Of a stretch of 64,000 bases of DNA, positions 56,183-60,652 are shown piece after piece; the stretch's first letter is position 1; each line of letters opens with the position of its first letter. Under the pieces are notes generated by a model, which saw only the letters and a program-made list of their open reading frames with translations, did no database searches and had not been told where the DNA came from. The DNA is taken from NCBI RefSeq assembly GCF_005080685.1, contig NZ_CP039371.1, positions 6,138,001 through 6,202,000 of the forward strand. Reading direction: 5' to 3'. The position numbers were made by a program, and so were the translations under genes. This DNA comes from Pseudomonas putida. GTDB taxonomy: Bacteria > Pseudomonadota > Gammaproteobacteria > Pseudomonadales > Pseudomonadaceae.

Positions 56183-56848
56183 CTACTGCTCCAGGGCCTG
56201 GTTGAACGGAACGTGGAATTCCTCGCACAGCGCGTCCACCGCGCCGCGAGCATTGGCGGTGACGAAGCCGAGCTCCAGCACCAGTACCTGGTAGACGCCT
56301 CGCTTGAAGGCTTCTTCACCCAGGTGCGCAGAATGTTCTCGGGTGGTGCTGAGAAAACGCACCCACGAGGTGAGGACGATCCAGGCATTGATGGTCAACG
56401 ACTCGATCTGCGCCGGCTCCATGGCCAGTATTCCGGCCTCGACGAAGCCGCGGTAGATCGCCTGGCCCTGGCGCAGGCAACGCGCGGAAAAGCGCCGGTA
56501 GCGGGCTGCAAGCTCTGGGTCGCTGTCGAGCAGGTGTTCCAGGTCACGGTGCAGGAAGCGGTAGTTCCACATCGCCGCGAGCAGGGCCTTGAGGTAGAAG
56601 CGCTTGTCCTCGACGGTGGCTGCGCGCCCCTGTGCAGGGCGTAGGAAACTGTCCACCAGTTCTTCGTACTGACTGAACAACACGGCGATGATCGCCTGCT
56701 TGTTGGGGAAGTGGTAGTACAGATTGCCGGGCGATATCTCCATGTACGCGGCGATGTGGTTGGTACTCACGCTGCGCTCGCCCTGCTGGTTGAACAGCTC
56801 CAGGCTGTTGTGCACGATGCGCTCTCGGGTCTTCATGCGCGGGGCCAT
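56183..56848 (-). CDS. TetR-family transcriptional regulator
   Basis: 221 aa. N-terminal HTH TRERIVHNSLELFNQQGERS then VSTNHIAAYMEISPGNLYYHF (recognition helix). The C-terminal domain is helical and unrecognised. Transcribed away from the structured repeat and the aldehyde dehydrogenase, so it may control the sulfurtransferase, the dehydrogenase or both. Confidence 0.92.
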   Translation of the reverse strand: MAPRMKTRERIVHNSLELFNQQGERSVSTNHIAAYMEISPGNLYYHFPNKQAIIAVLFSQYEELVDSFLRPAQGRAATVEDKRFYLKALLAAMWNYRFLHRDLEHLLDSDPELAARYRRFSARCLRQGQAIYRGFVEAGILAMEPAQIESLTINAWIVLTSWVRFLSTTREHSAHLGEEAFKRGVYQVLVLELGFVTANARGAVDALCEEFHVPFNQALEQ

Positions 56849-57384
56849 GCTCAGTTCCCAATCTGCAGGCTTTCGATAATGCAGCCATATTACGGTGGAT
56901 CACGCTCACGATGCACCGTTCGGCTGCGTGAAAAAATGGGTCTTCACGGATTGTTGGGGAGCTTGGCTTGGCTTGTTGGCATTGAGATTGGGAACGGTCC
57001 ATTTTGTGTAGCGGCGCTACTGGCCCCTTCCGCCTTTACGGCGGGTCCCTTTTTTCTTGGAAAAAGGGACGCAAAACCGCTTGCTCCTGCATCCGGCCCT
57101 CCGCTTCGCTACGGGTCCCCTCGCTACGGCGCCTTCCGGGCCCGCGCGGCCTACGACTTGCTGCGCAAGTCTACATCTCGCGCCTTCGGCTACGCCGAAG
57201 GGTGCTTCGCACCTGGCCCTACAGGCACCTACGCTCGGCCTCCTGACGTCGCAAAGTTAGGGGCGGCGCCTGCACTGGCGTTATCTTCGAAAGACAGAAC
57301 GCGCTGGCCGCTCCAACACGAAGCGATAGGTAAACAGCGAGAGCGCAGCGATTCGCCTGCCGTTGCTCTGGTTTTTGATCTGCT

Positions 57385-57408
57385 CTTGATCTTGATCTTG
57401 ATCTTGAT
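57385..57408. repeat. Tandem hexanucleotide repeat (CTTGAT)4
   Basis: Four exact copies of CTTGAT in the spacer of the large inverted repeat, preceded by a partial copy (TTTTTGATCTGC). Likely length-variable by slippage. Confidence 0.85.
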
Positions 57409-57624
57409 CTACCCGCGACCTCAGGAGGCCGAGCGTAGGCGGCTGGAGGGCCAGGTGCGCAGCACCCTCCGGCGTAGCCGGAGGCGCGAGATGTAGACTT
57501 GCGCAGCAAGTCGTAGGCCGCGCGGGCCCGGAAGGCGCCGTAGCGAGGGGACCCGTAGCGCAGCGGAGGGCCGTATGTGGGAGCAAGCGGTTTTGAGCAA
57601 CTTTTTCCAAGAAAAAAGTTGCCC

Positions 57625-57635
57625 GCCGTAAAGGC
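57625..57635. repeat. Left 11-bp target-site duplication of the IS
   Basis: GCCGTAAAGGC, repeated exactly at 59053-59063. Duplications of 10-13 bp are typical of IS4-family elements. Confidence 0.85.
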
Positions 57636-59052
57636 CATCCCTTTCAAGGTCTTCGGTAGAATCCACTGAAATCCAGTCAGGAAGATCCGAGATGTGGGCT
57701 GATGTACTAGCGCGATTCGAGAAAAAAGCACCCGCCAGCGTAATGGCCAAACTTGCCTTGGAGCAGGCCATTGCGCCGGAGTGGATCGATCAGGTTTTCG
57801 AGGAGCACCGGCAACGGCAGTATTCTCGCGAGCTGCTGTTCTCGACCATCGTCAAGTTGATGTCGCTTGTTTCATTGGGTTTGAAGCCATCGCTGCATGC
57901 TGCGGCCAGACAACTGGACGACCTTCCCGTCAGCTTGGCAGCCCTGTACGACAAGATCAGTCGAACCGAACCTGCCCTGTTGCGTGCTCTGGTGACAGGC
58001 TGCGCGCGGCGCTTGGCGCCCACAATCCATGAATTGGGCTGTTCAGCCATGCTTCCTGGCTGGCAAGTTCGAGTGGTCGATGGAAGCCACTTGGCCTCTA
58101 CCGAAAAGCGTCTTGGCGCGTTGCGCCAAGAGCGCGGGGCGGCTCGCCCCGGGTTCTCGGTGGTGGTTTACGACCCCGATCTGGATCAGGTAATTGACCT
58201 CCAGCCGTGCGAGGACGCCTACACAAGCGAACGAGTTTGTGTTTTGCCGTTGCTGGCTGAAGCAAAGGCCAATCAGGTTTGGATTGCTGACCGGCTCTAC
58301 TGCACGCTGCCTGTAATGGAGGCATGCGAGCAGGTGAACACATCGTTTGTCATTCGCCAGCAGGCCAAGCATCCACGCTTGATCCAGGAGAGTGAGTGGC
58401 AGGCGCCAATGCCCGTAGCGACAGGCACAGTGCGCGAACAATCCATCGAAGTAAAAGGCGGGCACCGCTGGCGGCGTGTGGAACTGACACTTCATTCACC
58501 AAATGACTCAGGTGACAAAAGCTTGATGTTCTGGAGCAACCTGCCCGAGAGCATCAGTGCACAACAGATCGCAGATTTCTATCGGCGTCGCTGGAGCATT
58601 GAGGGGATGTTCCAGCGACTGGAAGCGATTCTGGAAAGTGAAATCGAAACCCTCGGCAGTCCGCGAGCGGCCTTGCTTGGATTCACCACTGCCGTGCTGG
58701 CATACAACGTTCTGGCCTTGCTCAAGCGAAGTGTTGAACAGGCTCACCGCGATGCCTTGCCCGAGAATTGGGAAGCTTCGATCTATCACTTGGCGGTGCA
58801 GATCAGAGGAGGTTACGAAGGCATGCAGATTGCCTTGCCAACCGAGTACATGCCGGTTGTCTCTATGGAAGACCTGGCCCGGCGGCTACTTGAACTGGCC
58901 AGAAACATCCAGCCTAAGCAAGTAGCTAAAAGCCCCCGAGGTCCCAAGGTGCCCAAGCCCAAAGCCTGGGTCCAAGGCACGGCAGTGCATGCACACGTTT
59001 CAACCGATCGGGTCATTAAGGCCGCCAAAACCAAAAGACCTTGAAAGGGATG
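57636..59052 (+). mobile_element. Intact IS4-family insertion sequence, 1417 bp
   Basis: Terminal inverted repeats of 18 bp are perfect (CATCCCTTTCAAGGTCTT at 57636-57653 and its complement at 59035-59052). A single transposase gene fills the element. The 11-bp direct repeats flank it, and removing the IS plus one copy restores the right arm of the large inverted repeat, showing clean insertion after that element formed. Confidence 0.9.
57692..59044 (+). CDS. IS4-family transposase
   Basis: 450 aa, full length. DDE residues: Asp in VRVVDGSHLASTEKRL (~130), Asp in VWIADRLYC (~203), and Glu in the Y-R-R-R-W-S-I-E-G-M-F-Q-R-L-E block (~295-309), the Y(2)R(3)E(6)K-type signature of IS4 with Q in the K position. 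Starts with ATG 39 nt inside the left end after GGAAGATCCGAG. Its last codons lie within the right inverted repeat. Confidence 0.95.
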   Translation: MWADVLARFEKKAPASVMAKLALEQAIAPEWIDQVFEEHRQRQYSRELLFSTIVKLMSLVSLGLKPSLHAAARQLDDLPVSLAALYDKISRTEPALLRALVTGCARRLAPTIHELGCSAMLPGWQVRVVDGSHLASTEKRLGALRQERGAARPGFSVVVYDPDLDQVIDLQPCEDAYTSERVCVLPLLAEAKANQVWIADRLYCTLPVMEACEQVNTSFVIRQQAKHPRLIQESEWQAPMPVATGTVREQSIEVKGGHRWRRVELTLHSPNDSGDKSLMFWSNLPESISAQQIADFYRRRWSIEGMFQRLEAILESEIETLGSPRAALLGFTTAVLAYNVLALLKRSVEQAHRDALPENWEASIYHLAVQIRGGYEGMQIALPTEYMPVVSMEDLARRLLELARNIQPKQVAKSPRGPKVPKPKAWVQGTAVHAHVSTDRVIKAAKTKRP

Positions 59053-59063
59053 GCCGTAAAGGC
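59053..59063. repeat. Right 11-bp target-site duplication of the IS
   Basis: GCCGTAAAGGC, identical to 57625-57635. Confidence 0.85.
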
Positions 59064-59175
59064 GGAAGGGGCCAGTAGCGCCGCTACACAAAATGGATCG
59101 TTCCCAGTCCCAATGCCAAACCAGCCAGCCCCCCCAAACAATCCATGAAGAACCAAAAAACGCACCAGAGCTCGA

Positions 59176-59195
59176 TCTAGAATATAGGCTCTAGA
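59176..59195. promoter_or_regulatory. TCTAGA-N8-TCTAGA palindrome before the aldehyde dehydrogenase
   Basis: Two TCTAGA hexamers separated by 8 bp, 26 nt upstream of the GTG start. TAGAAT at 59178-59183 could be a -10 box within it. The site may be an operator for the TetR protein encoded 2.3 kb away or for another regulator. Confidence 0.45.
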
Positions 59196-59221
59196 AAAAC
59201 AGATTCAGACGGGACACTGCC

Positions 59222-60652
59222 GTGACCTCGCCCATCGCCCTGCCTGCCGTGCCTTCCGACACCGACCTGACCTCGACGTTTGCCCTCCAGCGCAAGGCGT
59301 TCGCCGGCAACCCGATGCCGCCTGCGGCGCAGCGCCAGCAATGGCTGAAGCACCTGCGCGCGGCACTGCTGGCAAACCAGCAAGCCTTGATCGCAGCCAT
59401 CGACCAGGACTTCGACGGCCGCAGCGCCGACGAAACCCTGCTGGCCGAGCTGCTGCCTTCGGTGCAAGGCATCCGCCATGCCGAGCGGCACCTGCAACGC
59501 TGGATGCGTCCGGCCAGGCGAGCCGTGGGCCTGGCGTTCCAACCCGCCAGTGCACGGGTGCTGTACCAGCCGCTGGGCGTGGTGGGGATCATCGTGCCGT
59601 GGAACTACCCACTGTTTCTCGCCATCGGCCCCCTGACCTGCGCCCTGGCCGCCGGCAACCGGGTCATGCTCAAGCTCAGCGAGGCCACGCCGGCCACTGC
59701 ACAGGCGTTGAAGACGCTGCTCGAACGGGTGTTTCCGGCTGACCTGGTCAGCGTAGTGCTGGGCGAGGTGGAAATCGGCCAGGCCTTCGCCAGGCTGCCC
59801 TTCGATCACCTGCTGTTCACCGGTGCTACCAGCGTCGGCCGGCAAGTCATGCTGGCCGCCGCAGACAACCTCACGCCGGTGACCCTGGAACTGGGCGGCA
59901 AATCGCCCGCCATCGTCTCGGCCAGCGTGCCCTTGGCCACCGCCGCCGAGCGCATCGCTTTCGGCAAGACCCTCAACGCCGGCCAGACCTGCGTCGCTCC
60001 CGACTACGTGCTGGTGCCCCGCGAACGTCTTCAAGCCTTCAGCGAGGCGTACCGCGAGGCCGTGCACCGGCTGTACCCTCGCATCGCCGGCAACGCCGAC
60101 TACAGCGCGATCATCAACCCCAGGCAGTTGCAACGCTTGCAGCACTTGCTGGCCGACGCTCGCGACAAAGGCGCCGAGGTCATCGACCTGTACCCCGACG
60201 AAGCCCCCCAGGGCCGGCGCCTGCCGCCGCATTTGCTGCTGCGGGTGAACGACACCATGCAAGTGATGCAGGACGAGATCTTCGGCCCACTGCTGCCGCT
60301 GGTGCCATACGATCACCTCGATGAGGCGCTCGACTACATCAACCGACGCCCACGCCCACTGGCACTCTATTACTTCGGATACGACCGGGCCGAGCAACGA
60401 CGCGTGCTGGAAAACAGCCACTCCGGCGGGGTCTGCCTGAACGACACCTTGTCGCACGTCGCCCAGGACGATCTGCCATTCGGCGGCATCGGTCCCTCCG
60501 GCATGGGCCACTATCACGGCCACGATGGTTTCCTGACTTTCAGCAAGGCCAAGGCCGTGCTGGCCAAGCAGCGCCTGAATGCCGCCCGGCTGATCTACCC
60601 ACCCTACGGCAAGGCCTTGCAACGCCTGGTCTACAAGTTGTTCATCCGTTGA
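59222..60652 (+). CDS. calB: Aldehyde dehydrogenase, coniferyl-aldehyde type
   Basis: 476 aa from the GTG at 59222. NAD-binding VVGIIVPWNYPLFLAIGPL, catalytic Glu in VTLELGGKSPAIV (~228) and catalytic Cys in NAGQTCVAPDYVLV (~260). The C-terminal ~30 residues (RLIYPPYGKALQRLVYKLF) are typical of the group that includes fatty aldehyde and coniferyl aldehyde dehydrogenases. Oxidation of aromatic or long-chain aldehydes is inferred from similarity. The start choice is supported by length rather than a strong ribosome-binding site. Confidence 0.85.
   Translation: MTSPIALPAVPSDTDLTSTFALQRKAFAGNPMPPAAQRQQWLKHLRAALLANQQALIAAIDQDFDGRSADETLLAELLPSVQGIRHAERHLQRWMRPARRAVGLAFQPASARVLYQPLGVVGIIVPWNYPLFLAIGPLTCALAAGNRVMLKLSEATPATAQALKTLLERVFPADLVSVVLGEVEIGQAFARLPFDHLLFTGATSVGRQVMLAAADNLTPVTLELGGKSPAIVSASVPLATAAERIAFGKTLNAGQTCVAPDYVLVPRERLQAFSEAYREAVHRLYPRIAGNADYSAIINPRQLQRLQHLLADARDKGAEVIDLYPDEAPQGRRLPPHLLLRVNDTMQVMQDEIFGPLLPLVPYDHLDEALDYINRRPRPLALYYFGYDRAEQRRVLENSHSGGVCLNDTLSHVAQDDLPFGGIGPSGMGHYHGHDGFLTFSKAKAVLAKQRLNAARLIYPPYGKALQRLVYKLFIR

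Follow-up and report, generated by a model that had tools for sequence, protein, structure and literature searches.

Organization of the element in the window

The window, a 64,000-nucleotide stretch of the Pseudomonas putida genome (contig NZ_CP039371.1, positions 6,138,001 to 6,202,000), contains a copy of an inverted-repeat element that is flanked by a gene of TetR type and one for an aldehyde dehydrogenase, the two being arranged head to head. The features of this copy, in window coordinates, are as follows:

56931..56936, no strand: A-run AAAAAA at the left edge (counterpart run at 59155-59160)
56938..56954, plus strand: left tip, GGGTCTTCACGGATTGT, from a tip-pattern search of the source genome
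56976..57042, plus strand: outer inverted repeat, left copy (right copy at 59053-59119; 96% complementary)
57008..57020, plus strand: H1 hairpin, GTAGCGGCGCTAC, the junction of the two halves in the 134-bp mini versions
57030..57044, plus strand: H2 hairpin of the left arm, CCGCC..GGCGG (in the right arm, the same hairpin was the target of an IS4-family element)
57045..57070, plus strand: H3, the T/A hairpin of the left arm, GTCCC type
57118..57236, minus strand: cloverleaf domain of the left arm, inside to outside, with a P1/P2 closing helix enclosing three hairpins
57155..57171, minus strand: H6 hairpin of the left arm, GACTTGC/GCAAGTC (right-arm counterpart at 57496-57512)
57183..57201, minus strand: H7 hairpin of the left arm, CCTTCGGC/GCCGAAGG
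57202..57212, minus strand: H8 hairpin of the left arm, GTGC/GCAC
57253..57414, no strand: spacer, with a four-fold TTGATC array (57386-57409) adjoining the right arm
57431..57549, plus strand: cloverleaf domain of the right arm, inside to outside, with one G.G mismatch in P1 of this copy
57466..57484, plus strand: H7 hairpin of the right arm, CCTCCGGC/GCCGGAGG
57597..57622, minus strand: H3, the T/A hairpin of the right arm, GCAAC type
57625..57635, plus strand: 11-bp target duplication of the IS4-family guest, GCCGTAAAGGC (second copy at 59053-59063)
57636..59052, plus strand: IS4-family insertion sequence (IS) of 1417 bp in the right-arm H2, a later guest and no part of the element
59138..59154, minus strand: right tip, the inverted copy GGTTCTTCATGGATTGT, from the tip-pattern search

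The inner arms (57032-57252 and 57415-57635) are 221 nt each and 92% complementary, with 162 nt between them, in agreement with the spacer of about 160 bp described in an earlier note on this DNA. The two outer repeat copies lie 2010 nt apart. The same note put the element at about 790 bp and saw no convincing gene in it. The length holds once the guest is subtracted, although the interval then delimited is about 2.2 kb and includes the 1417-bp IS; likewise, the element proper has no convincing gene, whereas the interval holds the transposase ORF of the IS (57692-59044; PF01609). This IS has the ends CATCCCTTTCAAGGTCTT, and its transposase is assigned to the IS4 family with a score exceeding the NCBIfam cut-off.

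Two long ORFs in the element matched no family in a Pfam search, and a scan for sigma-70-like promoters across 56850-59230 found 0 against 0.7 expected. When 56400-59500 was compared with 4227 Rfam families at E values up to 5, the sole weak match fell outside the element. An exact 7-bp duplication was sought at the edges of the window copy and none is left, and the paired A-runs at these edges suggest an A-tract as the target.

Copies, variants, and distribution

The core of the element is present at 28 places in its own 6.61-Mb genome, the window copy included. At least five of these copies are truncated (L053 and L055 to L058), and that at L055 runs 82 nt into a called ORF. According to a rough ORF caller, the neighboring genes are in tandem at 16 copies, tail to tail at 9, and head to head at 3. 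ISs are found in 9 of the 28 copies, with the IS4-family element in four, an IS481-like element in seven, and both in two. The IS4-family element has four matches in the genome, each of which lies inside the H2 hairpin of the repeat (the window copy, L046, L049, and L051), and this guest appears to home to that hairpin. The 1307-bp IS481-like element occurs in either arm (L041, L045, L049, L050, L051, L052, and L054), and its insertions in these 7 of 28 copies share one motif near GAGCAAGC; it is termed IS481-like because IS481 is its best NCBIfam match, at 202 bits against a cut-off of 224.

Mini versions of 134 to 152 bp are made of the outer repeats only, placed around H1 (L114, 2463-2596; L059, 3932-4082). 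The halves of the minis are joined at H1, where the core was either inserted or lost by deletion. A version with one arm is present in a relative (L135). Tandem TTGGC arrays of varying length lie between tip and arm in copies of the source genome such as L038 and L044.

BLAST searches with the core found it in the source genome and in 27 of 35 other genomes of the genus, and in 0 of 21 genomes from other genera of the same order. A covariance model (R1), run with filters that lose weak matches, identified the element in 53 of 149 Pseudomonas genomes, the source genome included, and at the level of the class the source genome alone was matched among 229. The 22-base tip has 24 matches in the source genome and 2 in 198 other genomes of the genus. 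This distribution makes the arms an old possession of the genus and these tips nearly private to the lineage. The conserved boundaries looked for after the earlier note are found, as tips, within the source genome, although their sequence is nearly confined to it.

Insertion sites

The tip pattern, with at most one mismatch, was found at 29 places in the source genome and at 0 in the control. Three chance tip matches were taken out before duplications, A/T runs, and terminator-like hairpins were tallied at the loci. Of the 40 tips at loci of this genome, 25 adjoin an A/T run of at least 4 and 11 a terminator-like hairpin with a T-run; among 4000 random positions, the corresponding shares are 2.8% and 0.37%. 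By eye, A-runs and T-runs both occur in the sense of the element, with no fixed relation between its direction and that of the terminator.

Exact 7-bp duplications flank three of the nine joined two-tipped copies (L034, where it is a homopolymer, L040, and L045). The other six present 5 bp (L036), 4 bp (L055), or none (four copies, among them that of the window). Empty sites were searched for by comparing the joined flanks of four copies (L034, L036, L040, and L045) with 149 genomes of the genus. At L040, the match runs unbroken across the junction in 10 of 10 aligned loci; at L034, it does so in two of four, the remaining two ending at the T-run; for L036 and L045 there was no clear crossing among the matches listed. 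The empty site seen for L034 and L040 is the T-run of a terminator. To judge from its dispersed copies, the tips of the source genome, insertion at A/T runs, and the empty sites, the element behaves as a mobile element.

The core has no match in the plasmid and phage collections, nor has the 134-bp mini in the plasmids. Neither an ISL3 family search of 33 genomes nor the tip search found a transposase with ends matching the element. Parentage by ISL3 had been prompted by tips starting with GGNTCTTC and was rejected, as the ends of an ISL3 element of G005 share GGNTCTTC alone; this comparison covers the 33-genome family search, which also gave weaker ISL3 fragments in G002 and G009, and the ends of that one G005 element. 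An ISL3-derived MITE would also be expected to have 8-bp duplications, whereas the exact duplications are of 7 bp. The PF01610 match in the source genome proved to be the C-terminal tail of a DesA desaturase. This DesA-family protein (L113, 5635-6828, minus strand) has a C-terminal tail common to ISL3 transposases, and because of this resemblance a search with PF01610 gives a match in most Pseudomonas genomes.

Paired changes in local hairpins

The H3 hairpins of the window copy, GTCCC..GGGAC at 57045-57070 and GCAAC..GTTGC at 57597-57622, differ by three pairs changed on both sides, and the H7 hairpins at 57183-57201 and 57466-57484 differ by one changed pair, just as the earlier note had read them. 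Across the source genome, H3 stems are of the GTCCC (two inner variants), GCTCC, GCAAC, CCTAC, and GCTAC types, with an additional divergent GTCAC form, and the loop TCTTGG is invariant. All 44 exact genome matches of TTTNTTCTTGGANAAA fall at element places, as does one of its three one-mismatch matches. The left and right H3 types are alike in 4 of 23 copies, with 4.0 expected, showing that the arms assort independently.

Forty-four arms of the source genome were aligned (40 distinct rows, 1155 pair cells) and compared with 500 shuffles; the minus arm of L053, in which the hairpin is deleted, was left out, and the minus row of L048 is misaligned. Standard pairs make up 99.6% of the cells (92.8% shuffled), 83 cells are changed on both sides (27.8 shuffled), and the covariation score is 0.183 (0.061 shuffled), with 0 of 500 shuffles as high in each case. 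Two other counts show no excess over shuffles, namely pairs with both-side change (6, equaled or exceeded in 174 of 500 shuffles) and further pair types (8, in 500 of 500), because near-identical copies hold few independent changes.

A wider scan of named genomes, with TTACGGCGG, TTT, TCTTGG, and AAA fixed and the stem ends free, retrieved at least 80 H3 loci, and all those listed are titled Pseudomonas. Among the at least 95 distinct hairpins listed, Watson-Crick pairs fill 914 of 950 cells, and the rest comprise 24 C.A, 11 of other kinds, and a single G.T; one stem variant supplies 20 of the 24 C.A cells, and C.A on the strand scanned is G.T on the opposite strand. Of 265 H6 to H8 loops located, 260 are TNC in the outside-to-inside direction, and each of the four letters occurs at N; the search motifs favor the TNC form.

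Stems could also be kept perfect without selection on the fold if template switching at imperfect palindromes (quasipalindrome correction) copied one side from the other. Entire H3 stems that vary among copies with both sides agreeing are in keeping with this mechanism, as is the scarcity of broken intermediates. However, it leaves without reason a TCTTGG loop that stays constant while the stem changes.

A cloverleaf fold kept across species

Folded inside to outside, 22 arms from nine genomes mostly present a P1/P2 helix around three hairpins, followed by H4, H3, and H2. The exceptions are the plus arm of L129, without a full P1, and two G015 arms of L137 with other interior hairpins. In the G015 arms of L137 to L140, H2, H3, and the closing helix are kept and the interior hairpins are quite different (GGCCATGGATGGCC and AGGGCCAGGACGGCCCT); these interiors suggest domain swaps within the fold. 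The closing helix is GGUGCCU/AGGCGCC in the left arm of the window copy and GGTGTTC/AGAGCACC in G003. The element of G016 has closing helices of 16 bp in each of its two arms, GGGATTGATCCGGGGG/CCCCCGGATCAATCCC and GGTGTCCATCAGGGGG/CCCCCTGATGGACACC, that are unrelated to each other.

Motif searches placed 90 of a total of 102 arms and missed 12. Thirty-three of the 90, spanning nine genomes, were hand-chosen for diversity, with the G015 arms of L137 to L140 left out. In this set, 97.7% of 954 cells are paired (84.0% shuffled), 18 of 29 consensus pairs have both-side change (12.6 shuffled), 128 cells are changed on both sides (27.5 shuffled), and the covariation score is 0.433 (0.168 shuffled), none of these values being reached in 500 shuffles. 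Further pair types number 36 against 32.4 shuffled (30 of 500 as high). Slid controls gave at most 24 both-side cells and a score of 0.087; the structure was derived from the alignment scored, which favors the unslid version, and the shuffles keep relatedness. The unpaired motifs GAGCG.AGG and G.AGCGA.GG, which also served to locate the arms, are kept in the 33 arms and nine genomes, and quasipalindrome correction leaves them without reason as well.

The cross-species set is stronger evidence of covariation than that of the source genome. The covariation across copies that the earlier note proposed to test is seen in scores above those of the shuffles, although within the source genome the counts of pairs that vary and of pair types do not exceed the shuffled ones; both sets were judged by pair counts against shuffles in which relatedness stays in.

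The 92% complementarity of the inner arms over 221 nt would favor a long arm-to-arm duplex, either a cruciform or a double-stranded RNA hairpin, as the functional form. Such a duplex is hard to reconcile with H3 types that assort independently (4 of 23 against 4.0), with the unrelated closing helices of the G016 arms, and with the existence of one-arm (L135) and arm-less (mini) versions. We consider it highly improbable as the functional form, and on the first two observations we reject it as the form under selection. Local stems are kept and arm-to-arm pairing is not, which upholds this part of the earlier note.

The strand probably under selection

Single mismatches within helices were counted in 134 distinct arms with G.U forbidden. 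Inside to outside there are 70 G.T against 15 A.C, and on the outside-to-inside strand there are 78 A.C against 8 G.T; distinct mismatch contexts are fewer (23 G.T against 9 A.C). A looser count gave 206 G.T against 61 A.C (35 against 28 in distinct contexts), compared with 341 against 365 in three rounds of shuffles. The excess of G.T over A.C points to selection on the single strand that reads inside to outside. Other mismatches are also common in this direction in the same 134 arms (62 G.G, 45 T.T, and 36 A.G), and this counts against the explanation that we favor below. Quasipalindrome correction, being symmetric, predicts no asymmetry between G.T and A.C; it is an improbable explanation of the stems, and may speed paired change.

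The folding z-scores of the left arm of the window copy are −4.07 inside to outside and −3.32 in reverse. In 139 of 139 arms, the inside-to-outside strand has the lower minimum free energy (MFE) whether or not G.U is allowed, so that base composition contributes. The covariation of the 33 arms and the strand-asymmetric mismatches support the proposal that local structure, in RNA or single-stranded DNA, is under selection. The closing helix has many wobble pairs (UG and GU entries in the 33-arm set), which makes RNA more likely than single-stranded DNA.

The orientation of the copies in the source genome is minus in 17 of 18 below 3.3 Mb and plus in 9 of 10 above (P = 1.4e-5). The GC skew is positive up to 2.85 Mb, about zero at 3.1 to 3.35 Mb, and mostly negative thereafter, and 26 of the 28 copies (L031 to L058) are oriented with the replichore. 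In two further genomes, where copies were found by one P1 pattern only (L362 to L374), the GGTGTTC arm lies along the skew-defined fork direction in 7 of 7 (G057) and 5 of 6 (G132); the correspondence of arms between lineages is unsure, because the TTGATC array adjoins either arm in these genomes.

A role as RNA gives no account of this bias along the replichore. The tracking of the replichore argues instead for folded single-stranded DNA that is exposed at replication forks, where a transposase or recombinase would recognize it on the model of the REP/RAYT, IS200/IS605, and integron attC systems. The H6 to H8 loops, which are GNA inside to outside, fit this alternative, as d(GC-GNA-GC) hairpins are extra-stable in DNA; in DNA, too, G.T is milder than A.C. 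However, frequent wobble pairs in the closing helix are what RNA would show, and arms of opposite sense, which place one on each template strand, would be needless in a purely lagging-strand role. We regard a single-stranded DNA form as rather unlikely.

Discussion

The explanation that we favor, and to which we give an even chance, is that of a MITE-like non-autonomous mobile element containing two inverted structured modules of about 230 nt, in which the inside-to-outside strand is selected, likelier as RNA. It would account for the many copies, the tips of the source genome, insertion at A/T runs, the empty sites, and the compensatory changes that preserve the folds of each arm. The selected form would be a single strand reading from the center of the element outward, and transcripts crossing the element would be more likely carriers of the fold than single-stranded DNA. 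With its arms inverted, the element would give any transcript crossing it from either side exactly one arm in that sense, and the module would be independent of orientation. The fold might act in cis near transcript 3' ends or in trans for mobilization. Insertion in the T-run of a terminator, with duplication of the run, might leave the host terminator intact and the site safe.

Several observations count against this explanation. An exact 7-bp duplication is missing from six of the nine joined copies, arms are dispensable for insertion of this sort, as seen from the 134-bp minis, the promoter scan of the window copy found 0, and a transposase with matching ends was not found.

Known systems share some of these features. 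Integron attC sites keep their fold as the stem sequence changes, which is the likeness to the element, and the element differs in having both arms inverted in one unit. Group IIC introns are positioned just past intrinsic terminators, a placement similar to that of the element, which differs in having no reverse transcriptase, symmetric ends, and no Rfam match. Among the MITE features tested, the element has no transposase of its own (that of the window copy is part of the later IS), terminal inverted repeats (outer repeats and tips), and empty sites (L040, 10 of 10; L034, 2 of 4). Possible target duplications are of exactly 7 bp in three of nine joined copies, one of them a homopolymer, and of 5, 4, or no bp in the rest. 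A search with the tip sequence itself, with 24 matches in the source genome and 2 in 198 others of the genus, brought up no candidate for an autonomous partner with common ends. The element thus shows most of the MITE features tested; a parent insertion sequence was not found, and the duplications are patchy.

Intergenic repeats of Pseudomonas are described as having a tail-to-tail bias, and some have been called MITEs (Silby et al., PMC2718517); the R0 and R2 repeats of P. fluorescens SBW25 are among those so proposed (PMC2718517). Such bacterial MITEs resemble the element in being short, non-coding, dispersed, and intergenic, with inverted ends and duplications in some copies. The element differs from them in its length of about 790 bp and in its two long inverted arms, each with a covarying cloverleaf. 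The P. fluorescens intergenic repeats R200 (320 bp) and R26 (352 bp) (PMC2718517) are near one arm in size, intergenic, and from the same genus; the table that lists them gives no inverted-repeat structure (PMC2718517), and they are compared with the element by description only. REP, BIME, and REPIN repeats associated with RAYT are the subject of PMC2817692 and PMC3733652, and REP units are given as 20 to 40 bp (PMC3733652). Repeats of this kind are similarly palindromic, multi-copy, and extragenic, with local hairpins. In contrast, the element has arms of about 230 nt, tips, and 7-bp duplications at some copies.

A literature search by title and start of abstract retrieved no paper describing the element. 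To the extent that the literature searched and Rfam show, what is new here is the covarying twin cloverleaf. More tentatively, the copies may belong to a Pseudomonas-wide mobile family whose payload is an inverted pair of non-coding cloverleaves (RNA or single-stranded DNA), placed at terminators and kept in one orientation to the fork; such a transposon would have a structured nucleic acid in the place of a gene.

On sequence grounds, the element probably represents a structured module, of RNA or single-stranded DNA, that transposition has spread and that has been overlooked. It provides a large natural covariation experiment for a fold with no Rfam match, as there are dozens of arms per genome and the covariance model has matches in 53 of the 149 Pseudomonas genomes sampled. 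If transcribed, it would be a high-copy structured RNA that has gone unnoticed among intergenic repeats; if its active form is single-stranded DNA, it would offer a testable link among hairpin strings, fork direction, and transposition. On either reading, the role of long bacterial intergenic repeats, an old question, would become directly testable.
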